From the NCBI RefSeq assembly GCF_004570385.1, contig NZ_SPQL01000006.1, positions 124,001 through 188,000 of the forward strand: a DNA stretch of 64,000 nt, read 5' to 3'. The translations under genes and the position numbers were made by a program. Under the pieces are notes generated by a model, which saw only the letters and a program-made list of their open reading frames with translations, searched no databases and was not told the origin of the DNA. This document shows, piece after piece, positions 10,293 to 59,651 of the stretch. The number at the start of each line of letters is the position of its first letter. Within the stretch, counting starts at the first letter, position 1. Source of the DNA: Blastococcus sp. CT_GayMR19 (lineage in GTDB: Bacteria; Actinomycetota; Actinomycetes; Mycobacteriales; Geodermatophilaceae).

Positions 10293-10967
10293 GTGCCTGA
10301 TCGGAACGATTACAACCCCGAGGACACCGGTCCCGTCGGCGGACGGCGGCGCGACCTGCCGGCCGTCCCACCGGCCCGGCCGCGTGCGACCACACCTCAG
10401 CCGACGTACCACCCGACGACCGAGCTCGACCTCGGCCGCGGGTTCCCGCCGCCGGTCACGCACGAGACGAGCGAGATCGATCTCAGTGGCGGCTGGCCCG
10501 AGCACTTGAAGGTGCCGCCCCGGCGGGCGTCGTCGCGCCCGTCCGGCCGGGTGCTGGGGGTCGACGTGGGCACGGTCCGGGTCGGCGTCGCTCTGTCGGA
10601 CCCGACCGGCACGATCGCCAGCCCGCTGGAGACGCTCCATCGCGCGAAGGACGAGTCCGATCTGGACCGGCTCGCGGCGCTCGTCGTGGAACACGAGGTA
10701 TCAGAGGTGGTGGTGGGAGAGCCGAGGCATCTGTCAGGTGCGTCGGGCGCTTCCGCCCAGGATGCCCGTGCCTACTCTGAGGCACTGGCCAGTCGCGCAG
10801 CGGATGTGCCGGTGTACTTGATCGACGAAAGGCTCTCCACCGTGACCGCAGCCAGTCACCTGCGCGCGGGCGGCATCGACAGCCGCAAGCAGCGTCCGGT
10901 GATCGACCAGGCGGCCGCGGTGGTGATCCTGCAGCAGTACCTCGACAGCCGGCAGACCCGATCATGA
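10293..10967 (+). CDS. ruvX: YqgF/RuvX family putative pre-16S rRNA nuclease with N-terminal extension
   Basis: 224 aa. The RNase H-like YqgF domain begins near residue 86 (VLGVDVGTVRVGVALSD) and contains the later motifs VVVGEPRHLSG and DERLSTVTA. The family is linked to 16S rRNA 5'-end maturation and was earlier called a Holliday junction resolvase. Most members are about 140-160 aa; here a proline- and charge-rich leader of some 85 residues precedes the domain and carries a duplicated motif (TELDLGRGFP at 43-52, SEIDLSGGWP at 60-69). It starts 6 bp after alaS at a GTG. Confidence 0.9.
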   Translation: MPDRNDYNPEDTGPVGGRRRDLPAVPPARPRATTPQPTYHPTTELDLGRGFPPPVTHETSEIDLSGGWPEHLKVPPRRASSRPSGRVLGVDVGTVRVGVALSDPTGTIASPLETLHRAKDESDLDRLAALVVEHEVSEVVVGEPRHLSGASGASAQDARAYSEALASRAADVPVYLIDERLSTVTAASHLRAGGIDSRKQRPVIDQAAAVVILQQYLDSRQTRS

Positions 10968-11040
10968 CCGGCTCGGCGGGGCGCTGTTCGACAGCACCGC
11001 CGCCGGGCGAATCGCCGGCGTGCGCCAGCGAGGAGGACAC

Positions 11041-12936
11041 ATGACCGATCCCAGCGGATCGCGCGGAGGCCGACATTCGTCCGGCTTCCCGGAGAGCCCG
11101 TTCACGGCCGGCCACGAGTTCCGCGCCGACTTCCCGGTGCCGCGCACTCCGGGCTTCGCCGCCCCGCGCTACGAGGACGCCCGCTACGAGCCGCCGCTGT
11201 GGACCACCGCGACCGCGGGCTCCGCGTTCGACGCATCCGCGCACACCACCGGGGGCCTCCGTTCCGGCTCCGGCCTGCTCGACCGCCGTCCGGACGAGAC
11301 CGGCCCGCTCGTCGAGCCCGAGTGGTGGTCCTCTCCCGGTGCCGAGCACCTGGGCGGTCCCCTGACCGCACGGCACAGCCGTGACGAGCCGCCCGGCCGG
11401 GGCGCCTGGGGCTCCGACCCCCGCACCGGCCCCGCATCGCCCCATCCCTCCGCCCCGCTCCCGCCGATGCCCCCGGGCGTGTGGGACCGGCTGCAGTCCC
11501 GCCACGGCGCGCCGGGCGACGACGCCGCGACCGTGGCGCAGCCGCTCGTCCCCGGGGCGCCCCCGGTGTCCGAGGAGCCCGGCGCACCGTCGGACGAGGA
11601 GACCGAGGCGCACCACCTCGACCCACGCGCCTGGGAGGACCAGACCGGCGGGCTGGACGTCATCGGTGCCCACGTCGCCGAGGACGCGCCCCGTCCGCGC
11701 GGACGCCGGGCCCGCCGCGAGGCCGCCGAGGCCGCCCGCCGCGCGGAGTACGAAGCCGGCGAAGACCTGGAGGCGGCCGGCCTCGAGCCGGACGACCTCG
11801 AGCACGACGTCCTGGGTCCCGACGGCCTGGTGCGCGACGAGCACTTCGGGGAGGACATCCCCGTCAAGCCCTACGACCCGCGTTCCAGCCGCGCGCGCCG
11901 GCGCCGGCGTCCGATCGCGATCGTGGTCTCGCTGCTGCTGCTGGCCGGGCTCGTCGTCGGCATCGTCGTCGGCGGGCAGCGGCTGCTGACGCTGATCGAC
12001 CCTACGTCGCGCGACTACACCGGGCAGGGGACAGGAACGCAGGACATCCGCGTCAGCGAAGGTGAGACGCTCAGCGACATCGCGCGGACCCTGGTCGACG
12101 CCGGCGTCATCGCCTCCGCCGGCCCGTTCGTCGTGGCCGCCGAGGCCAACGCGGAGTCCAAGGGCATCCAGCCCGGTGTCTACGCCCTGCGGAAGCAGAT
12201 GAGCGGGCAGGCAGCGCTGGATCTGCTGCTCGACCCCGCGGCGCGCCAGCTCTCCCGGGTCACCCTGCCCGAGGGGCTCACCGTCCAGCGCACGCTGGCC
12301 CGCCTCGCCGAGGCGACCGGCCGGCCGGAGGCGGAGTTCCAGGCCGCGGCCTCCGACCTCGCGGCGCTCGGCCTGCCCGCCTACGCCACCGGCGGCCTCG
12401 AGGGCTTCCTCTTCCCGGCCACCTACGACGTCGAGCCCGACGACGCGCCGGCGGACATCCTGCGGCAGATGGTCACCCGCTCGGTGCAGATGCTCGACCA
12501 GCTGCAGATCCCGGTCGAGCGTCGGCTCGAGGTCGTCACCAAGGCGAGCCTGGTGCAGGCCGAGGCGGGCTCGGTGGAGGACATGGGCAAGGTGGCCCGC
12601 GTCCTGGAGAACCGGCTGGCCGACGGGATGGCCCTGCAGCTCGACACCACGGTCAACTACGCCAACAACAAGGGCGGGATCACCACCACCGCCCAGGACC
12701 GGGCCAACCCCTCGCCGTACAACACCTACGTGCACGCCGGCCTCCCGCCCGGGGCGATCAGCAACCCCGGTGAGGACGCGCTGCGGGCGGTGCTGGCACC
12801 CACCCCGGGCGACTGGCGCTTCTTCGTGGTCGTCGACCCCGACACCGGGGAGACCCGGTTCGGGGCCACCGCCGAGGAGCACGAGCAGAACGTGCTGCTG
12901 TTCCAGCAGTGGCTGCGGGAGAACCCCGAGGGATGA
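11041..12936 (+). CDS. mltG: endolytic murein transglycosylase MltG with long cytoplasmic N-terminus
   Basis: 631 aa. The ATG at 11041 is chosen because AGGAGGA (11031-11037) lies just before it; a GTG at 11020 in the same frame has no such site. Residues 1-285 are a Pro/Glu-rich, low-complexity cytoplasmic region. One membrane segment follows (about 289-312, IAIVVSLLLLAGLVVGIVV), then the extracytoplasmic YceG domain, with the catalytic glutamate probably in ASLVQAEAG. MltG cuts nascent glycan strands next to elongating synthases. The gene sits between ruvX and aroE as in many actinobacteria. Its stop codon opens a tandem stop/start ladder. Confidence 0.9.
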   Translation: MTDPSGSRGGRHSSGFPESPFTAGHEFRADFPVPRTPGFAAPRYEDARYEPPLWTTATAGSAFDASAHTTGGLRSGSGLLDRRPDETGPLVEPEWWSSPGAEHLGGPLTARHSRDEPPGRGAWGSDPRTGPASPHPSAPLPPMPPGVWDRLQSRHGAPGDDAATVAQPLVPGAPPVSEEPGAPSDEETEAHHLDPRAWEDQTGGLDVIGAHVAEDAPRPRGRRARREAAEAARRAEYEAGEDLEAAGLEPDDLEHDVLGPDGLVRDEHFGEDIPVKPYDPRSSRARRRRRPIAIVVSLLLLAGLVVGIVVGGQRLLTLIDPTSRDYTGQGTGTQDIRVSEGETLSDIARTLVDAGVIASAGPFVVAAEANAESKGIQPGVYALRKQMSGQAALDLLLDPAARQLSRVTLPEGLTVQRTLARLAEATGRPEAEFQAAASDLAALGLPAYATGGLEGFLFPATYDVEPDDAPADILRQMVTRSVQMLDQLQIPVERRLEVVTKASLVQAEAGSVEDMGKVARVLENRLADGMALQLDTTVNYANNKGGITTTAQDRANPSPYNTYVHAGLPPGAISNPGEDALRAVLAPTPGDWRFFVVVDPDTGETRFGATAEEHEQNVLLFQQWLRENPEG

Positions 12937-12993
12937 GGACAGCGGGATGAGGACAGCGGGATGAGGACGCGCGGGATGAGGACGGTGCGGTGA
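12933..12993 (+). repeat. Tandem stop/start ladder at the mltG-aroE junction
   Basis: A unit of about 14 bp (ATGAGGACAGCGGG) is repeated with starts at 12933, 12947, 12961 and 12976 and a diverged last copy at the aroE GTG (12990). Every copy begins ATGA or GTGA, so stop and start codons overlap at every step. The first two units encode overlapping MRTAG-stop mini-cistrons; the third is one base longer and reads through to the TGA at 12991-12993, overlapping the aroE start. Confidence 0.85.
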
Positions 12994-13793
12994 GGGCAGC
13001 GGTCCTCGGTCGCCCCGTCAGCCATTCCCTCTCGCCGCTGCTGCACCGGGCCGCCTACGCGGCACTGGGGCTGGCCGACTGGACCTACGACGCCTTGGAC
13101 GTGGGCGCCGAGGACCTCCCGGAGCTGCTGGCCGGGCTGGGGCCGGAGTGGCGGGGCTTCTCCGTCACGATGCCGTGCAAGCAGGCGGCCGCGGCGGTCG
13201 CCGACGTCGTGGAACCACTGCCCCGGCTGCTGGGGGCGGCGAACACGCTGATCCGCACCGACGCCGGCTGGCGTGCGGAGAACACCGACGTCAGCGGCGT
13301 CGGGATGGCCCTGCAGCTGGCCGGCGTCGAGGAGGTCGGTGAGGCGGCGATCGTCGGTGCCGGCGGCACGGCGGGCGCGGCGGCCGTCGCCCTGGCGTCC
13401 CTGGGCGCGGCGCACGTCGAGGTCGTCGTCCGGGATCCGTCGCGTGCGGCGGGCCTGACCCGGGTGCTGGACACGCTGGGCGTCCCGGTGACCGTCTCCC
13501 GGCTGGCCGACGCCGTCCTCGACGCGGCCGTGGTGGTGAGCACCGTCCCCGTCGACGCCCAGCCCGACGTCCTGGACCTTCCCTGGCGGGGCGGCCAGAC
13601 CGTGCTCGACGTCCTCTACGCGAACTGGCCCACGCCGCTGGCGCAACGGGTGGGCGAGGTGGGCGGGACCGTCGCCGGGGGGCTCGACGTGCTGTTCTGG
13701 CAGGCGACCCTGCAGGTGGAGCTGATGACGGGGCAGCCCGCGCCGATCGCCGCCATGCGGGCGGCTCTGGACGCCGCCGTGGGCCCCCGCTGA
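12990..13793 (+). CDS. aroE: shikimate dehydrogenase
   Basis: 267 aa. NADP-dependent reduction of 3-dehydroshikimate in the chorismate pathway. Seen: substrate-binding VSHSLSPLLHRAAY at the N-terminus, FSVTMPCKQAA with the catalytic lysine (the family usually has NVTxPxK), AENTDVSG, and the Rossmann loop VGAGGTAGAA. The Cys in MPCK is common in actinobacterial AroE. The GTG start is the last rung of the stop/start ladder, so translation probably depends on ribosomes terminating at mltG. Confidence 0.93.
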   Translation: MRAAVLGRPVSHSLSPLLHRAAYAALGLADWTYDALDVGAEDLPELLAGLGPEWRGFSVTMPCKQAAAAVADVVEPLPRLLGAANTLIRTDAGWRAENTDVSGVGMALQLAGVEEVGEAAIVGAGGTAGAAAVALASLGAAHVEVVVRDPSRAAGLTRVLDTLGVPVTVSRLADAVLDAAVVVSTVPVDAQPDVLDLPWRGGQTVLDVLYANWPTPLAQRVGEVGGTVAGGLDVLFWQATLQVELMTGQPAPIAAMRAALDAAVGPR

Positions 13794-21663: not shown

Positions 21664-22580
21664 AGCGCCACCTGCTGGAGGCCGCGGACCTGGACCGCGC
21701 CGACGCCACGCTGGTACTGGACACCGCGGCGCAGATCGACGCCGCGCTGGCCGGGCGCGAGGTGAAGAAGCTGCCCACCCTGCGCGGCCGCACGGTGGTG
21801 AACCTGTTCTTCGAGGACTCCACCCGCACGCGCATCTCCTTCGAGCTCGCGGCCAAGCGGCTCTCCGCCGACGTCATCAACTTCTCGGCCAAGGGCAGCA
21901 GCGTGTCAAAGGGCGAGAGCCTCAAGGACACCGCGCTCACCCTCGAGGCCATGGGCAGCGACGCGATCGTCGTCCGGCACCACGCCTCCGGGGCGCCGCA
22001 CCGCCTGGCCTCCTGGGTCAAGGGCAGCGTGGTCAACGCCGGCGACGGGACGCACGAGCACCCCACCCAGGCGCTGCTCGACGCGTACACGATCCGGCAG
22101 CGCCTCGGGCGGCTCGAGGGCGTCCGGGTCGCGCTCGTCGGCGACGTGCTGCACAGCCGGGTCGCCCGGTCCAACGTCGGCCTGCTGCACACCCTCGGCG
22201 CCGAGGTCACCGTTGTCGCGCCGCCCACGCTGGTGCCGGTCGGCGTCGGCAGCTGGCCGGTCGAGGTCAGCTACGACCTGGACGCCGTCCTGCCCAAGGC
22301 CGACGTCGTGATGATGCTGCGCGTCCAGGCCGAGCGGATGACCGCCTCGTTCTTCCCCAGCGCCCGCGAGTACAGCCGCCGGTACGGACTCGACGCCCGC
22401 CGGATGGCCACCCTCCCCGACGACGCGATCGTCATGCATCCCGGCCCGATGAACCGCGGGATGGAGATCGCCGCCGAGGTGGCCGACTCCGTCCGCTCCA
22501 CGATCGTCGAGCAGGTCGGCAATGGGGTCTCCGTGCGCATGGCCGTGCTCTACCTGCTGCTGGGGGGGCGGAGCGAGTGA
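21660..22580 (+). CDS. pyrB: aspartate carbamoyltransferase catalytic subunit
   Basis: 306 aa. The GTG at 21660 overlaps the pyrR stop (GTGA). It condenses carbamoyl phosphate and aspartate, the committed pyrimidine step. Key motifs: carbamoyl-phosphate loop [31 protein letters not shown] with the lysine of the 80s loop, [26 protein letters not shown], and [11 protein letters not shown]. No regulatory pyrI follows. A run of seven G (22562-22568) lies near the 3' end, and the stop TGA is the start of a junction repeat. Confidence 0.96.
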
Positions 22581-22640
22581 GCATCGCAGCGAGCGCCAGC
22601 GAGCGAGGAGCGGAGCGAGTGACGAGCGGAGCGAGTGTGG
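22566..22640. repeat. Junction repeat copy between pyrB and pyrC
   Basis: Positions 22577-22619 repeat the 43-bp unit seen at 400-442 with one mismatch, flanked by extra GCGGAGCGAG units on both sides. The pyrB stop codon (22578-22580) lies in its first bases. The pyrC ribosome binding site GGGGAG (22643-22648) follows directly. Confidence 0.88.
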
Positions 22641-22653
22641 ACGGGGAGCCCGC

Positions 22654-23943
22654 ATGACGAACTACCTGATCAAGGGCGCGAAGCCCTACGGCGGCGAGGC
22701 CGCCGACATCTTCCTCAAGGACGGCCGGATCGCCTCGATCGGCGAGCACCTGCGGGTGCCGGGCGCCGACGTGATCGACGCCGCCGGCCTGGTCGCACTG
22801 CCCGGCCTGGTCGACCTGCACACCCACCTGCGCGAGCCCGGCCGGGAGGACGCCGAGACCGTCGAGACCGGCAGCCGGGCGGCCGCGCTGGGCGGGTTCA
22901 CCGCTGTGCACGCCATGGCCAACACCGACCCGGTCGCCGACACCGCCGGCGTCGTCGAGCAGGTCTGGCGGCTGGGCCAGCAGGCCGGCCTGGTGGACGT
23001 CGTCCCGGTCGGCGCCGTGACCGTCGGCCTCAAGGGCGAGCGGCTGGCCGAGCTCGGCGCCATGGCCGACTCCGCGGCCCGGGTCCGCGTCTTCTCCGAC
23101 GACGGGATGTGCGTGAGCGACCCGGCGCTGATGCGCCGCGCGCTGGAGTACGTGAAGGCCTTCGACGGCGTCGTCGCCCAGCACGCCGAGGAGCCGCGGC
23201 TCACCGTCGGCGCGCAGATGCACGAGGGCGACCGGTCGGCGCGGCTCGGGCTCGCGGGCTGGCCGGCCGCGGCCGAGGAGGCGATCATCGCCCGCGACGT
23301 CCTGCTGGCGGGGCACGTCGGCGCCCGCCTGCACGTCTGCCACGTGTCGACGGCGGGCTCGGTCGAGCTGCTGCGCTGGGCGAAGGCGCGCGGCGTCCAG
23401 GTCACCGCCGAGGTCACCCCGCACCATCTGCTCCTCACCGACGCCTGCGCGGAGGGCTACGACCCGGTCTTCAAGGTCAACCCCCCGCTGCGGACGGCCG
23501 AGGACGTGGCCGCCCTCCGGGCCGGGCTGGCCGACGGGACCATCGACGCCGTCGCCACCGACCACGCCCCGCACGCCGTGGAGGACAAGGAGAGCGAGTG
23601 GGCCGCGGCCCGGCCAGGGATGCTCGGGCTGGAGCAGGCGCTGTCCGTCGTCGTCGAGACGATGGTCGAGACCGGGCTGCTCGACTGGGCCGGCGTGGCC
23701 GATCGCATGTCGGTGCGCCCGGCGGTCATCGGCCGGCTCACCGAGCAGGGCCGCCCGCTCGCCCCCGGCGAGCCGGCCAACCTGCTGCTGCTGGATCCCT
23801 CCACCCGGGCCACCGTCGACCCGGCCGCGCTGGCCAGCCGCAGCCGCAACAGCCCCTATGCCGGCCGGGAGCTCCCCGGCCGGGTGGTCGCGACCTTCCT
23901 GCGGGGCGTCCCGACCGTGCTCGACGGAAAGGCGCAGAAGTGA
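22654..23943 (+). CDS. pyrC: dihydroorotase
   Basis: 429 aa, the longer class I (Bacillus/actinobacterial) dihydroorotase. The ATG at 22654 gives the normal N-terminus [13 protein letters not shown] and has GGGGAG 5 bp upstream; earlier in-frame starts would be inside the repeat. Metal and catalytic motifs: [13 protein letters not shown] (HxH), [23 protein letters not shown] (His), [11 protein letters not shown] (His) and ATDHAPH (Asp). It cyclises carbamoyl aspartate to dihydroorotate. Confidence 0.95.
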
Positions 23944-23959
23944 GGAACGAACACGACGG

Positions 23960-24006
23960 GCGAGTGAGCATCGCAGCGAGGTCTGCGAGCGAGGAGCGGA
24001 GCGAGT
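23960..24006. repeat. Junction repeat copy between pyrC and carA
   Basis: 23964-24005 is a 42-bp version of the same unit, in which CGCCAGC of the other copies is replaced by GTCTGC. It fills most of the 76-bp gap. The carA ribosome binding site GGAGGGGAG (24009-24017) follows its end. Confidence 0.88.
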
Positions 24007-24019
24007 CCGGAGGGGAGCA

Positions 24020-25186
24020 ATGAGCAACGCGATCCTCGTGCTCGAGGACGGGCGGACGTTCCGGGGCGACTCCTACGGCGCGACCGGGACGACGGTCGGC
24101 GAGGCGGTCTTCTCCACCGGCATGACCGGCTACCAGGAGACGCTGACCGACCCGAGCTACCACCGCCAGGTCGTCGTCATGACCGCCCCGCACATCGGCA
24201 ACACCGGCGTGAACGGCGAGGACGACGAGAGCAGCCGGATGTGGGTCGCCGGATTCGTGGTCCGCGACCCCGCCCGCCGCCCCGCCAACTGGCGGTCGAC
24301 CGGCAGCCTGGACGACGAGCTCGTCCGGCAGGGCGTGGTCGGGATCAGCGGCATCGACACCCGCGCCCTGACCCGGCACCTGCGCGACCGCGGCGCCATG
24401 CGGGTGGGCATCACCAGCGAGCACACGGACGCCGACCGGCTGCTGGCCGAGGTGCGCGCGGCCGAGAGCATGGTGGGTGCGGACCTCGCGCCGCAGGTGA
24501 GCGCGGAGTCGGCCTACGTCGTCCCGGCGGTGGGGGAGAAGCGGTACACGATCTCCGCCCTCGACCTCGGCATCAAGACCGCGACCCCGCGGCACCTGGC
24601 CGAGCTCGGCGTCGAGACGCACGTGCTGCCCGCCACCGCGACCGCGGCGGACCTCCTGGCAGCCGGCCCCGACGGCGTCTTCCTCTCCAACGGTCCGGGC
24701 GACCCGGCCGCCGCCGACTACGCCGTCGAGGCGGTGAGGGGCGTGCTCGACGCGCGCCGGCCGCTGTTCGGCATCTGCTTCGGCAACCAGATCCTCGGCC
24801 GCGCGCTGGGCCTGGGCACGTACAAGCTGCGCTTCGGCCACCGCGGGCTCAACCAGCCGGTGCTCGACCGCGTGAGCGGCACCGTCCGGGTGACCAGCCA
24901 CAACCACGGCTTCGCCGTCGACGCACCGCTCGACCGGGCCACCGACACCCCGTACGGCCGGGTCGAGGTCAGCCACGTCGGCCTGAACGACGACGTCGTC
25001 GAGGGGCTGCGCTGCCTCGACGTCCCCGCGTTCAGCGTGCAGTTCCACCCGGAGGCCGCAGCCGGGCCGCACGACGCGGCGCCGCTCTTCCAGCGGTTCG
25101 TGGACCTCATGGACAGCGCGCGGGGGAGCGGCGACGCGGTCAGCCCACCGCCCGTCGTGGAGCACAGCACGGGGGAGAAGCTCTGA
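24020..25186 (+). CDS. carA: carbamoyl-phosphate synthase small (glutaminase) subunit
   Basis: 388 aa. The ATG at 24020 follows a strong GGAGGGGAG and gives the standard start [19 protein letters not shown]. The N-terminal CPSase_sm domain is followed by a class I glutamine amidotransferase with the nucleophile in [11 protein letters not shown], the SHNHGFAVD segment and the catalytic His/Glu in VQFHPEA. It supplies ammonia to CarB. The stop overlaps the carB start by one base (TGATG). Confidence 0.96.
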
Positions 25187-28515: not shown

Positions 28516-29411
28516 CCGGCCGGAATGGCCACGCCGGCCACGTGACCGAGCCGGCGCCGAAACCCGCGCATCCGCCGGTGCAGCGCGAGGTCGAGGTGGT
28601 CGGCCGGCGCCCGGTGAACGCCTACGTCGAGCTGAGCCTGGCCGCCCCGGAGATCGCGGAGCGGGCCGAGCCGGGGCAGTTCCTCGCGTTCGCCATCGGC
28701 GGGGAGACCTCGGCACTCCTGCTGCGCCGCTCCATCGCGATCGCCGGCGCCGGCGACGGCGTGGTCAGCGTCGTCGTGGCTCCGCACGGGCCGGGGTCGA
28801 CCTGGCTGGCGGGGCTGCGGGTGGGGGAGCGGGTGGACGTCGTGGGGCCGCTCGGCCGGCCGTTCCCCGCCGCGCCCGCCGGAGCGCGGGCGCTGTTGGT
28901 CGGCGGCGGCTACGGCGCGGCCGCGCTGGTGGGACTGGCCGCCCGACTGCGGTCCCAGGGGCACGAGGTGGCCGCGGTCGCTGGCGCGGCCTCGGCCGAC
29001 CGGCTCTGCTCGGTGGCGGAGCTCTCGGCCCTCGCCGCGCCGGTGGAGGTGACCACCGACGACGGCAGCGCCGGCCGGACCGGGCGCGTCACCGTCGCGG
29101 TGGACGAGTTGCTGACCGGCGTCGGCGTGGTCTACGCCTGCGGGCCGATGGCCATGCTGCGGGCCGTGGCGGACGCGGCGACCGCGCTGGGGATCCCGTC
29201 CTACGTCGCCGTCGAGGAGTCGATGGCCTGCGGGATCGGGGTCTGCATGACGTGCGTCCTGCCGGTGGTCGGCGAGGACGGCCGCACCCGCTTCTCCCGC
29301 TCCTGCGTGGAGGGGCCGGTGTTCGGCGGTGACCGGGTGCGTTTCGACGACGTGGGGAAGCTGCCGCACGACGTCGTCGGCGCCGACGCGATGGGAGTGG
29401 TGGCCCCGTGA
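28512..29411 (+). CDS. pyrK: dihydroorotate dehydrogenase B electron-transfer subunit
   Basis: 299 aa, FAD/[2Fe-2S] protein. The FAD-binding beta-barrel has [10 protein letters not shown], the NAD-binding part [16 protein letters not shown] and YACGPMAML, and the iron-sulfur cysteines follow C240-x4-C245-x2-C248-x16-C265. It passes electrons from PyrD to NAD. The GTG start overlaps the carB stop. Mycobacteria use the membrane quinone-linked type 2 enzyme and lack pyrK, so the pair marks a type 1B system here. The N-terminal 20 residues are a His/Pro-rich extra. Confidence 0.9.
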
Positions 29412-29424
29412 CCGCCGTCCAACC

Positions 29425-29478
29425 AGCTTTCGGTACAGAAAGCTGCGCCGTCGGCGCGCGCTCTCGGTACCGAAAGCT
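29425..29478. promoter_or_regulatory. Twin 20-bp palindromes between pyrK and pyrD
   Basis: AGCTTTCGGTACAGAAAGCT (29425-29444) and CGCTCTCGGTACCGAAAGCT (29459-29478) are two copies of the ideal palindrome AGCTTTCGGTACCGAAAGCT, each slightly damaged. Their centres are 34 bp apart. They lie in the only sizeable gap (94 bp) in the lower half of the pyr operon. Either they are protein operators or each folds as an RNA hairpin; the sequence alone does not decide. Confidence 0.7.
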
Positions 29479-29505
29479 CACTGATGGAGTGGGGGCGGTC
29501 TCGCC

Positions 29506-30462
29506 ATGACGGTCGTCGAGACCGGCGTCGACATGCGGACGGCGCTCGGCGCGGTGGAGATCCCGGGCCCGGTGCTGACCGCCTCCGGGTGCTCGGCCTT
29601 CGGGCAGGAGCTGGAGCCGTTCGTCGACCTGACCGCGCTCGGCGCCGTCGTGACCAAGTCGGTGCAGCTGCGCCCGCGGTCCGGCCGGCCGACGCCGCGG
29701 ATGGCGGAGACGCCGAGCGGCATGCTCAACTCGATCGGCCTGCAGGGCCCGGGGATCGACGGGCTGCTGGCCGAGGACCTGCCCTGGCTGGCCGAGCGCG
29801 GGGCGCGGGCCTTCGTCTCCATCGCCGGCACCCGGGTCGAGGACTTCGCCGAGCTGGCCGAGCGGTTGCGCGGCGTCCCCGGGGTGCTCGGCCTCGAGGT
29901 CAACATCAGCTGCCCGAACGTGGAGAGCCGCGGCGAGGTGTTCGCCTGCGACCCCGTGGCGGCCTCGGACGTGCTCTCCGCCGTCCGCGCCGCCGCGGAC
30001 CCTGCGCAGCCGGTCTACGCCAAGCTCAGCCCGGACGTCACCGACATCGTCTCGGTCGCGCGTGCGGTTCGCGACGCCGGCGCCGACGGGCTGTCGATGA
30101 TCAACACCCTGCTCGGCCTGGTCATCGACCCCGACACCATGCGCCCGGTGCTCGGCGGGGTGACCGGCGGCCTCTCCGGGCCGGCCATCCGCCCGGTGGC
30201 GCTGCGCTGCGTCTGGCAGGTGCACGCGGCGATGCCGGAGGTGCCCATCCTCGGGATGGGTGGCATCCGCAACGGCCTGGACGCCCTGCAGTTCGTCCTG
30301 GCCGGCGCGAGCGCCGTCTCGGTCGGCACCGCCGTGTTCAACGACCCGTCAGCGCCCGTCCGGATCCACGACGAGCTCGCGGCGGTGCTCGCGGCGCGCG
30401 GCTTCGCATCGCTGTCCGACGCCGTCGGCCACGCCCACCGTCCGGCCGGAGTCGAGCGATGA
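29506..30462 (+). CDS. pyrD: dihydroorotate dehydrogenase, type 1B catalytic subunit
   Basis: 318 aa cytosolic FMN TIM barrel. The catalytic base is the cysteine of NISCPN (C136), which marks class 1 enzymes (class 2 uses serine). Other motifs: TASGCSAFGQELEPF, GAVVTKSVQLRPRSGRPTPR, SIGLQGPGID, AKLSPDVTD and the phosphate-binding GMGGIRNGLDALQF / GASAVSVGTAVF. There is no N-terminal membrane anchor. With PyrK it forms the NAD-dependent heterotetramer. The stop overlaps pyrF (ATGA). Confidence 0.93.
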   Translation: MTVVETGVDMRTALGAVEIPGPVLTASGCSAFGQELEPFVDLTALGAVVTKSVQLRPRSGRPTPRMAETPSGMLNSIGLQGPGIDGLLAEDLPWLAERGARAFVSIAGTRVEDFAELAERLRGVPGVLGLEVNISCPNVESRGEVFACDPVAASDVLSAVRAAADPAQPVYAKLSPDVTDIVSVARAVRDAGADGLSMINTLLGLVIDPDTMRPVLGGVTGGLSGPAIRPVALRCVWQVHAAMPEVPILGMGGIRNGLDALQFVLAGASAVSVGTAVFNDPSAPVRIHDELAAVLAARGFASLSDAVGHAHRPAGVER

Positions 30463-31358
30463 GCGCCTCTGCACTCGACGACGTCGCACCGTTCGGCCGC
30501 CGTCTGGCCGCCGCCGTGGCCGACCGTGGCCCGCTCTGCGTGGGCATCGACCCGCACCGGGCACTGCTGCTGGACTGGGGCGTCGGCGACGACCTGGACG
30601 GCCTGCGGCGGTTCACCGACGCCGTCGTCGAGGCGCTGGCCGGCTCGGTGGCGGTGCTCAAGCCGCAGATGGCGTTCTACGAGCGCTTCGGGGCCCGCGG
30701 GGTCGCAGTGCTGGAGGACGCCGTCGCCCGGATCCGGGCCGCCGGCGCCCTGGTGCTGCTCGACGCCAAGCGGGGCGACATCGGCTCCACGATGGACGCC
30801 TACGCCGACTACCTCGCCGGCGACCACCCCATGCGCGTCGACGCCCTGACCGTGAGCCCCTACCTGGGGCCGGAGTCGCTCGAGCCCGCCCGGCGCACCG
30901 CCGTCCGCTCCGGCGGTGGGCTCTTCGTGCTGGCCCGGACCTCGAACCCGGAGGCGGGGACGCTGCAGCACGCGCTCGTCGGGCAGCGGTCGGTCGCCCA
31001 GGTGGTGGTCGACACCGTGCGTGGCTGGAACACCCCGGACTGGGTCGTCGGCGACCCGGTGCCCGACATCGCGGCGGTCCGCGACCTGGCCACCGGCTGG
31101 GGTCCGTCGACCGGATCGTTCGGCGTCGTCGTCGGCGCCACCCTGCCCGAGCTGGACGTCGACCTCGACGGCCTCGGCGGCCCGATCCTCGCACCGGGCC
31201 TCGGGGCGCAGGGCGGTTCGCCGGCCGACCTCCGGCGGCTCTTCGGCACCGGCCGGGCCGTCGTCCCCACGGTGTCCCGGGACGTCCTGTCCGCCGGGCC
31301 CGACGTCGGCGCGCTGCGCGCCGCCGCGGACCGCTGGGCGGGGGAGCTCGCGGGATGA
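30459..31358 (+). CDS. pyrF: orotidine 5'-phosphate decarboxylase
   Basis: 299 aa, the long class II OMP decarboxylase found in actinobacteria. The ATG at 30459 overlaps the pyrD stop. Signature LLDAKRGDIGSTMDAYADYL carries the catalytic Lys-Asp-Lys/Asp residues; CVGIDPH near the N-terminus and ILAPGLGAQGG near the C-terminus bind the substrate phosphate. It is the last enzyme of UMP synthesis and the last recognisable pyr gene here. pyrE is not in the window. The stop codon is the first rung of a tandem stop/start ladder. Confidence 0.93.
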   Translation: MSASALDDVAPFGRRLAAAVADRGPLCVGIDPHRALLLDWGVGDDLDGLRRFTDAVVEALAGSVAVLKPQMAFYERFGARGVAVLEDAVARIRAAGALVLLDAKRGDIGSTMDAYADYLAGDHPMRVDALTVSPYLGPESLEPARRTAVRSGGGLFVLARTSNPEAGTLQHALVGQRSVAQVVVDTVRGWNTPDWVVGDPVPDIAAVRDLATGWGPSTGSFGVVVGATLPELDVDLDGLGGPILAPGLGAQGGSPADLRRLFGTGRAVVPTVSRDVLSAGPDVGALRAAADRWAGELAG

Positions 31359-31405
31359 GCCTCGCGGGATGAGCCTGGCGGGATGAGCCTGGCGGGATGA
31401 GCAGA
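31350..31405 (+). repeat. Four-copy 14-bp stop/start ladder at the pyrF junction
   Basis: GCGGGATGAGCCTC, GCGGGATGAGCCTG (twice) and GCGGGATGAGCAGA follow each other with no gap. The first unit holds the pyrF stop (31356-31358) and the fourth holds the ATG of the next gene (31397). In between, ATGs at 31355, 31369 and 31383 each open a five-codon MSLAG cistron whose stop overlaps the next ATG. Confidence 0.9.
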
Positions 31406-45154: not shown

Positions 45155-47316
<2,162 letters not shown>

Positions 47317-59186: not shown

Positions 59187-59651
59187 TCACCCGACCGCGC
59201 CGATCCCGTCGAGGACGACGGCGAACTGCGCCGGCGACAGCCACGAGGGGTTGCTCCCCGCCGGCATCCGGAGGACCTCGGCGTCCCGCGCCCGAGGGTC
59301 GGCGAGGAGCGCCTCCCGGGCCAGGGGCTCGGCCAGGAGGGTGAGACGGACCGGCACGACCGGCCCGCCCGTTCCGCTCGTGGCAGCGGAAGCGGAACTC
59401 GCGCTCTCGCCGTCGGCGTCCTGTGGCCCGGCCGTCAGGAGGCCGACCGCGTGCACACCTGGGTCGGTGCGGCCGCTGAGCCAGAGGAGGCAGGGCTGCC
59501 CGGCAGCCATGAGCTCCAGCCGGTAGGAGGGGCGCACGCACCGGGTCATGGTCCGCGTCGTGCCCGGCCGCCATCCGGGAGCGAGCTGCGCCGGCGGCAC
59601 GGCGCTCTTGAACACCCAGCAGGCGATGTCCGCGGCGGCCAGGCGGGCCAC
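59187..59651 (-). CDS. EVE-like (PUA fold) domain protein
   Basis: 154 aa from the GTG at 59651. CWVFKSAVPPAQLAPGWRPG, CVRPSYRLELMAAGQPCLLWLSG and the ending PAGSNPSWLSPAQF resemble EVE domains, which bind modified bases in nucleic acid or tRNA. The GTG start lies 14 bp after the stop of the small acidic gene upstream, so the two are probably one transcript. Confidence 0.7.
   Translation of the reverse strand: MARLAAADIACWVFKSAVPPAQLAPGWRPGTTRTMTRCVRPSYRLELMAAGQPCLLWLSGRTDPGVHAVGLLTAGPQDADGESASSASAATSGTGGPVVPVRLTLLAEPLAREALLADPRARDAEVLRMPAGSNPSWLSPAQFAVVLDGIGAVG

Follow-up and report, generated by a model that had tools for sequence, protein, structure and literature searches.

Bacterial minisatellites, also known as VNTRs, are arrays of short units that stand head to tail and vary in copy number. 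Mycobacterial interspersed repetitive units (MIRUs) are repeat units of tens of base pairs, among them a 77-bp type. According to a review of translational coupling (PMC12548453), coupling between neighboring genes is efficient when stop and start lie −4 to +3 nt apart and is much weaker by ~30–40 nt. The same review gives NTGA as the commonest overlap, notes that insertion of a MIRU makes the MIRU ORF couple at −4, and treats the mechanism and consequences of coupling as still unsettled, with most mechanistic work done in E. coli. Here we examine a junction at which several NTGA overlaps follow one another in series. A search of the open-licence literature, covering titles and abstract openings, found no description of such ladders.

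The window examined in this study is a 64,000-nt stretch of the genome of the soil actinobacterium Blastococcus sp. CT_GayMR19. On its forward strand the upstream gene mltG (YceG family; Pfam YceG, 2e-73) is an ORF that spans 11020–12936 including its stop, with a start at GTG 11020 or ATG 11041, and is followed on the same strand by the shikimate dehydrogenase gene aroE at 12990–13793 (Pfam Shikimate_dh_N, 8.7e-21). The two genes are now 53 nt apart. Since coupling is described as much weaker by ~30–40 nt (PMC12548453), a gap of this length would be expected to need a bridge.

The gap is filled by a ladder of RTGA rungs, with ATGA at 12933, 12947, 12961 and 12976 and GTGA at 12990. These positions had been reported in the initial annotation and were found again in the sequence. 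The mltG stop, TGA 12934–12936, lies inside the first rung; the earliest in-frame start of aroE, GTG 12990, is the last rung. Stop and start therefore overlap in the −4 manner at both ends of the array, and every hop between them is an NTGA. Unit 1 (ATGAGGACAGCGGG, 12933–12946) and unit 2 (12947–12960) are identical, and each contains the mini-ORF MRTAG*, with stops at 12948–12950 and 12962–12964 respectively. Unit 4 (ATGAGGACGGTGCG, 12976–12989) contains MRTVR*, which stops at 12991–12993. Unit 3 (12961–12975) is 15 bp long and the other three are 14 bp. As a result its ATG opens a single 10-codon ORF, MRTRGMRTVR*, which passes through rung 4 and ends at the same stop, in agreement with the earlier claim that the third unit fuses two rungs into one ten-codon frame. 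The chain stays closed despite the longer unit. Tandem Repeats Finder places the array at 12930–13002, with a period of 14, 5.1 copies and a score of 95.

Each rung is a classic NTGA overlap of the −4 type. An ordinary coupled pair has one such overlap, whereas the ladder has several in series, forming mini-cistrons that come from tandem duplication. We think it probable that the ladder grew by repeated small duplications of an NTGA overlap, which were kept when termination-reinitiation still passed between the genes. Slippage or unequal exchange would have copied ~14 bp of junction DNA, and each copy would bring an NTGA and so create a mini-cistron that ends in an overlap with the start of the following one. 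Once it had terminated at 12934, a ribosome leaving mltG could reinitiate at the ATG that overlaps the stop, translate five codons, terminate and begin again, reaching the aroE GTG after four stops (12934, 12948, 12962 and 12991). A 53-nt insert would be expected to reduce coupling, which serial −4 hops along the rungs would bring back; copies of a chain-breaking length would uncouple the genes and be lost. We infer that the rungs are used by ribosomes and are kept by selection to maintain coupling, rather than by chance.

A second ladder lies on the forward strand at 31355–31400, between pyrF and a small gene without a Pfam match. Its four ATGA rungs, 14 bp apart, were confirmed at 31355, 31369, 31383 and 31397 and form three MSLAG* mini-ORFs. 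The initial annotation had described the mltG-aroE and pyrF units as unlike one another, which did not hold up on direct comparison: ATGAGGACAGCGGG and the pyrF unit ATGAGCCTGGCGGG have 10/14 bases in common (ATGAG and GCGGG). Among 30 pyrF loci, this genome included, the ladder was present in one, this genome. A plain −4 overlap to the following ORF was found in 11/30, and 18/30 had no such gene, although 3 of these 18 (L416, L427 and L430) look mislocated. Given a ladder in only one of the 30 loci and plain −4 overlaps in 11, the pyrF ladder looks recent.

Ladders of this kind were sought in the window as three RTGA at a constant interval of 8–30 bp whose units are 70% identical or more. Two places qualified, compared with none in 200 dinucleotide-preserving shuffles. 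The genome (4.57 Mb in 42 contigs) was then searched by period. The period 14 pattern (RTGA-N10-RTGA-N10-RTGA) gave 6 matches, which were repeat-like only at the two window ladders. Period 13 gave 1 match that was not repeat-like, periods 11, 16, 17 and 20 gave none in this genome, and period 15 gave 14 matches, which the repeat-likeness counts exclude. A two-rung 14-bp case was seen on contig C7 of this genome (G000), upstream of a gene that we take from its sequence to be mnmA. As no other repeat-like period-14 ladder exists in the genome, the two ladders in 64 kb look like a local cluster and not a sample of the genome.

The 14-bp unit was also considered as a dispersed element and rejected, for the two-unit mltG-aroE sequence occurs once in 4.57 Mb with up to 3 mismatches allowed. 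Of known elements, mycobacterial MIRUs come nearest to the ladder, which would work in the manner of a MIRU or a coupling leader: in both, a repeat ORF overlaps the start of the next gene by NTGA. MIRUs, however, are longer, homologous to one another and dispersed, whereas the ladder unit is 14–15 bp and local. Insertion of a mobile unit of the MIRU kind at the junction would account for the type of NTGA site and the stop-to-start reading, and a 77-bp element of that kind does exist in this genome (see below). The single occurrence speaks against such an insertion, as does the finding that units trace to local DNA and differ between ladders, and we regard it as extremely improbable.

The source of the units was examined by comparing them with their flanks. 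Outside the RTGA, the mltG-aroE unit matches the first bases of aroE itself at 8/10 positions, and for the pyrF unit the 8/10 match is to the end of pyrF. The comparison was extended to 36 junction ladders, namely the window's two and 34 found by the codon model described below. Units resembled the tail of the upstream gene in 25/36, the head of the downstream gene in 15/36 and either one in 32/36. When flanks were swapped between ladders the means were 6.1, 5.8 and 10.6, respectively, and 0/1000 swaps reached the observed counts. These results show that ladder units stem from local junction DNA. The proposal that the two window ladders arose separately by local duplication is borne out, in that each unit could be traced to its own junction. 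The added proposal that the duplication took in the first codons of the next gene fits mltG-aroE but not pyrF, where the unit resembles the preceding gene.

A family-wide survey was then carried out on 112 genomes, one per species, by scanning for RTGA triplets at fixed period with the tool's reversed pattern as a control. Matches were found in 75/112 genomes at period 14, 65/112 at period 17, 36/112 at period 13 and 43/112 at period 16. By hand summation the totals were 231 versus 22 in the control at period 14, 51 versus 15 at period 13 and 95 versus 21 at period 16. At period 17 there were 146 versus 61, so that the control counts are not negligible, notably here, where 44 of the 61 came from two genomes. 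The matches carried forward were 150 listed at period 14 (to G028, with 35 genomes outside), 51/51 at period 13, 146/146 at period 17 and 64/95 at period 16, mostly one per array. They represent at least 70 repeat-like loci at period 14, 55 at period 17, 12 at period 13 and 32 at period 16. Flanks were read for 59/70 (among the matches listed), 40/55, 12/12 and 27/32 of these, respectively.

RTGA triplets 11 bp apart occurred in 106/112 family genomes, many as GTGAC-N6-GTGAC, and some recur between genomes (ATGACGTCACTGTGACACCAC). Many of these 11-bp repeats look like direct-repeat operators of a regulator, and period 11 was not used because they confound it. Their frequency makes it reasonable to ask whether the ladder is likewise a repeated regulator binding site. 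That explanation seems very improbable to us: the array lies between co-directed genes and runs from one stop to the next start at 14-bp spacing, and other ladders have units of their own.

Arrays were classified as junction ladders with a codon model, which asks for a gene ending at the first rung and another starting at the last on the same strand and in frame. By this test 24/59 of the 14-bp arrays (among the matches listed), 10/40 of the 17-bp arrays, 0/12 of the 13-bp arrays and 3/27 of the 16-bp arrays were junction ladders. When each flank had to stay open for 90 codons or more, 22, 10, 0 and 3 remained. L241 and L259, which have a stop 6–7 codons before the first regular rung, account for the drop from 24 to 22. 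Among the arrays with flanks read, the 14- and 17-bp junction ladders thus number 34 by the codon model and 32 by the strict count, or ~28 gene pairs when relatives are left out. An earlier test based on third-position GC, which identified 6/59 (14 bp), 5/40 (17 bp), 0/12 (13 bp) and 0/27 (16 bp), was dropped in favor of the codon model; it cannot separate the coding strand and one antisense frame, and ties are scored as antisense.

Unit length separates the junction ladders. With units of 3n+2 bp, such as 14 or 17, the start of each rung would be in frame with the stop of the next. With 13- or 16-bp units one duplication would break the chain and a second would restore it (26 or 32 = 2 mod 3). 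The strict counts are 32 for 14/17 bp versus 3 for 13/16 bp (p 4e-7; Fisher test on proportions, p 0.002). The three 16-bp cases have three rungs each, and with 32 bp from first to last (2 mod 3) the chain can close. This excess fits a loss of uncoupled intermediates. The 3n+2 rule alone does not predict all lengths and is not shown for every length: at period 20 only 2 of the 47 loci tested were at junctions, and at period 15, which has matches in 112/112 genomes, mostly non-repeats among those listed (to G097), 0/11 repeat-like loci from that listing were at junctions.

The unit lengths also bear on the comparison with minisatellites. The ladder is likewise a tandem array whose rung number varies between species; unlike minisatellites, junction ladders favor 14- and 17-bp units, which keep the stop/start overlap, over 13- and 16-bp units. 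The array could nevertheless be a neutral minisatellite, produced by slippage at a GC-rich junction where spacing matters little and aroE initiates alone at GTG 12990. In its favor, tandem RTGA arrays are also found where the junction test fails (35/59 at period 14, among the matches listed), and unit 3 of the mltG-aroE ladder is already 15 bp. Shine-Dalgarno-like matches in the units are without clear enrichment as well, averaging 3.50 versus 3.34 in shuffled sequence; at the last rung, 16/36 ladders have at least 4 matches. Nor was any special RNA fold of the ladder detected (z 0.01). The junction bias toward 14/17 bp runs counter to neutrality, as does a chain that is still closed with a 15-bp unit, and we consider neutral slippage unlikely.

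Ladder-carrying gene pairs supported by Pfam include hisE-hisG, selA followed by an EF-Tu-like GTPase (selB by position), and a KsgA-type dimethylase followed by a GHMP kinase. For PF03602, a CobQ-like protein, a LigD polymerase and MurJ, Pfam supports the second gene only. No common theme was apparent in the ladder-carrying genes inspected in the family. One array that failed both junction tests, L204 (G131 C1 near 1985079–1985386), has 20 ATGA-bearing copies of a 16-bp unit. Beyond the family, a class-wide scan found period matches in 156/196 genomes. Thirty arrays from other families of the class were read; 14 were repeat-like, and 0/14 qualified as gene-gene ladders under the junction test, whose training came from this genus. 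When frames were assigned by ORF length, the class-wide arrays likewise gave no clear junction ladder.

From the two window ladders the initial annotation had suggested a general process in this lineage. At the level of the family this stands, with 34 junction ladders of 14- and 17-bp units, and both further cases and an excess over chance were found. By density in this genome it does not, as period 14 yields only the two.

The mltG-aroE junction was compared among relatives in a set chosen without regard to ladders, consisting of the window and 80 aroE loci of named genomes (80 kept of 119). Blastococcus and Geodermatophilus make up most of the nearest named relatives by AroE. A single MAG supplied two of the 80 loci, L037 and L039, and the gene in front of aroE was identified as mltG from its C-terminal pattern. 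In 62/81 junctions the aroE start overlaps or abuts the preceding gene. In the other 19 it lies 7 to 53 nt past the preceding stop, and all 19 gaps are bridged by a frame that opens at an NTG on that stop: 16 chains end exactly on the aroE NTGA after one or more hops and 3 join aroE in frame. Exact endings were found in 8/9 lineages, counted by eye from the AroE tree, versus 1 in 3 expected (p 0.001). Start codons are ATG or GTG throughout in 9 of the 19 chains; TTG is needed in 8 and CTG in 2. The weak starts in 10/19 chains are what neutral slippage would allow, whereas 19/19 unbroken chains argue against it and are as expected if duplications are kept when termination-reinitiation still passes.

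Most mltG-aroE junctions have a single overlap; L035 and L042 have two rungs, L052 has four and the window has five. L052 is the only other long ladder among the 81. On the AroE tree L052 belongs to a supported group, with the window branching off outside it, and the nearest kin of L052, L073, has a plain overlap. The units of the two ladders differ at 1/14 bases. Because of the separation on the tree and the plain overlap in L073, the two ladders appear to have arisen separately; the alternative is loss in several lineages.

Differences in rung number raise the possibility that a share of ribosomes is lost at each hop, so that the second gene's output would depend on rung number, which slippage easily alters. 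Rung number varies between species at mltG-aroE (one, two, four or five) and at the orthologous junction between a GCS2-family ligase and an M20 peptidase, which has 3, 4 and 4 rungs in L293, L295 and L297. Against this, such changes could be neutral, and the ladder-carrying genes show no common theme; we regard tuning by rung number as a rather doubtful possibility. It can be true together with the preferred reading, in which duplications are retained when termination-reinitiation is preserved.

Bridging is not confined to ladders. A simple gene finder was used to collect gapped same-strand pairs in the window whose stop is ATGA or GTGA and is not overlapped by a start. The chain extends as far as the following gene in 8/9 of these: ruvX-mltG, mltG-aroE, pyrB-pyrC, pyrC-carA, the pair around 29411–29506, pyrF and its next gene, ribBA-ribH, and a minus-strand pair near 59187. 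In the ninth (47316) the chain ends 2 nt before the next model start. Two TTGA stops showed no relay. At ruvX-mltG (10964–11044, forward strand) a 26-codon ORF begins at an ATG on the ruvX stop and finishes on ATGA 11041. At pyrB-pyrC (22577–22657, forward strand) a 26-codon ORF runs from GTGA to the pyrC ATGA, and at pyrC-carA (23940–24023, forward strand) a 27-codon ORF runs from GTGA to ATGA; the inserts at both are rich in AGCGAG and have stretches in common. The 29411–29506 gap has inverted repeats around GCTTTCGGTAC and GGTACCGAAAGC and a 33-codon stop-to-start frame.

Relays were counted in a wider junction set from which the chosen arrays were excluded, and compared with reshuffled gaps, a null that counts in-frame joins and is therefore conservative. 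Relays were found in 31/36 junctions versus 20.2 expected, and in 24/29 groups versus 16.3 expected (p 0.0026 by groups); the set includes several copies of ruvX-mltG, and the groups are not fully independent. Gap length modulo 3 was 1 in 22 groups, 0 in 4 and 2 in 3. In the window alone 7/7 relayed versus 3.5 expected. The excess of relays over reshuffled gaps is modest.

The ribBA-ribH bridge (46455–46535, forward strand) is of another kind. It consists of a 77-bp dispersed element that is bounded by RTGA on either side and encloses a 26-codon ORF running from GTGA to ATGA. The element is also present before qcrA elsewhere in this genome (L022, 865–945) and in the relatives L033, L060, L062, L063, L064, L091 and L111 near 480–820, where its position places it upstream of mltG. 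In a profile search of 1.48 Mb, 12 matches reached E ≤ 1e-5, of which 9 were the seeds, and the window ruvX-mltG insert matched weakly (E 0.028). With a length of ~77 bp, RTGA ends, an open frame between them and more than one unrelated junction, the element is MIRU-like in its layout and lies outside mycobacteria.

A different dispersed repeat was met at period 20, where a unit like TGAGCCAGGAC was present in 31/47 loci. This 20-bp unit (GTGAGCCAGGAC...) stands head to tail, mostly in intergenic-looking DNA (L342–L371 and others), and often follows GGCTCAC, which gives it a palindromic start. A single genome may contain several copies, as in G113, G107 and G103.

Tentatively, operon junctions in this family may grow by duplication under a stop-to-start rule, with rung number acting as a mutable dosage dial for the second gene, and DNA between coupled genes may be kept only if its mini-cistrons hand the ribosome across. 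We offer the two together as a conjecture, some way short of an even chance. If true, one constraint would have given rise both to the ladders and to the 77-bp MIRU-like inserts, through a relay that lets coupled genes separate and still stay coupled. The ladders are a natural repeated experiment on whether termination-reinitiation coupling is selected, as the same gene pair in different species offers ladders that differ in rung number and unit length. If the rungs are used, rung number would be a compact element for tuning, open to construction and direct measurement.
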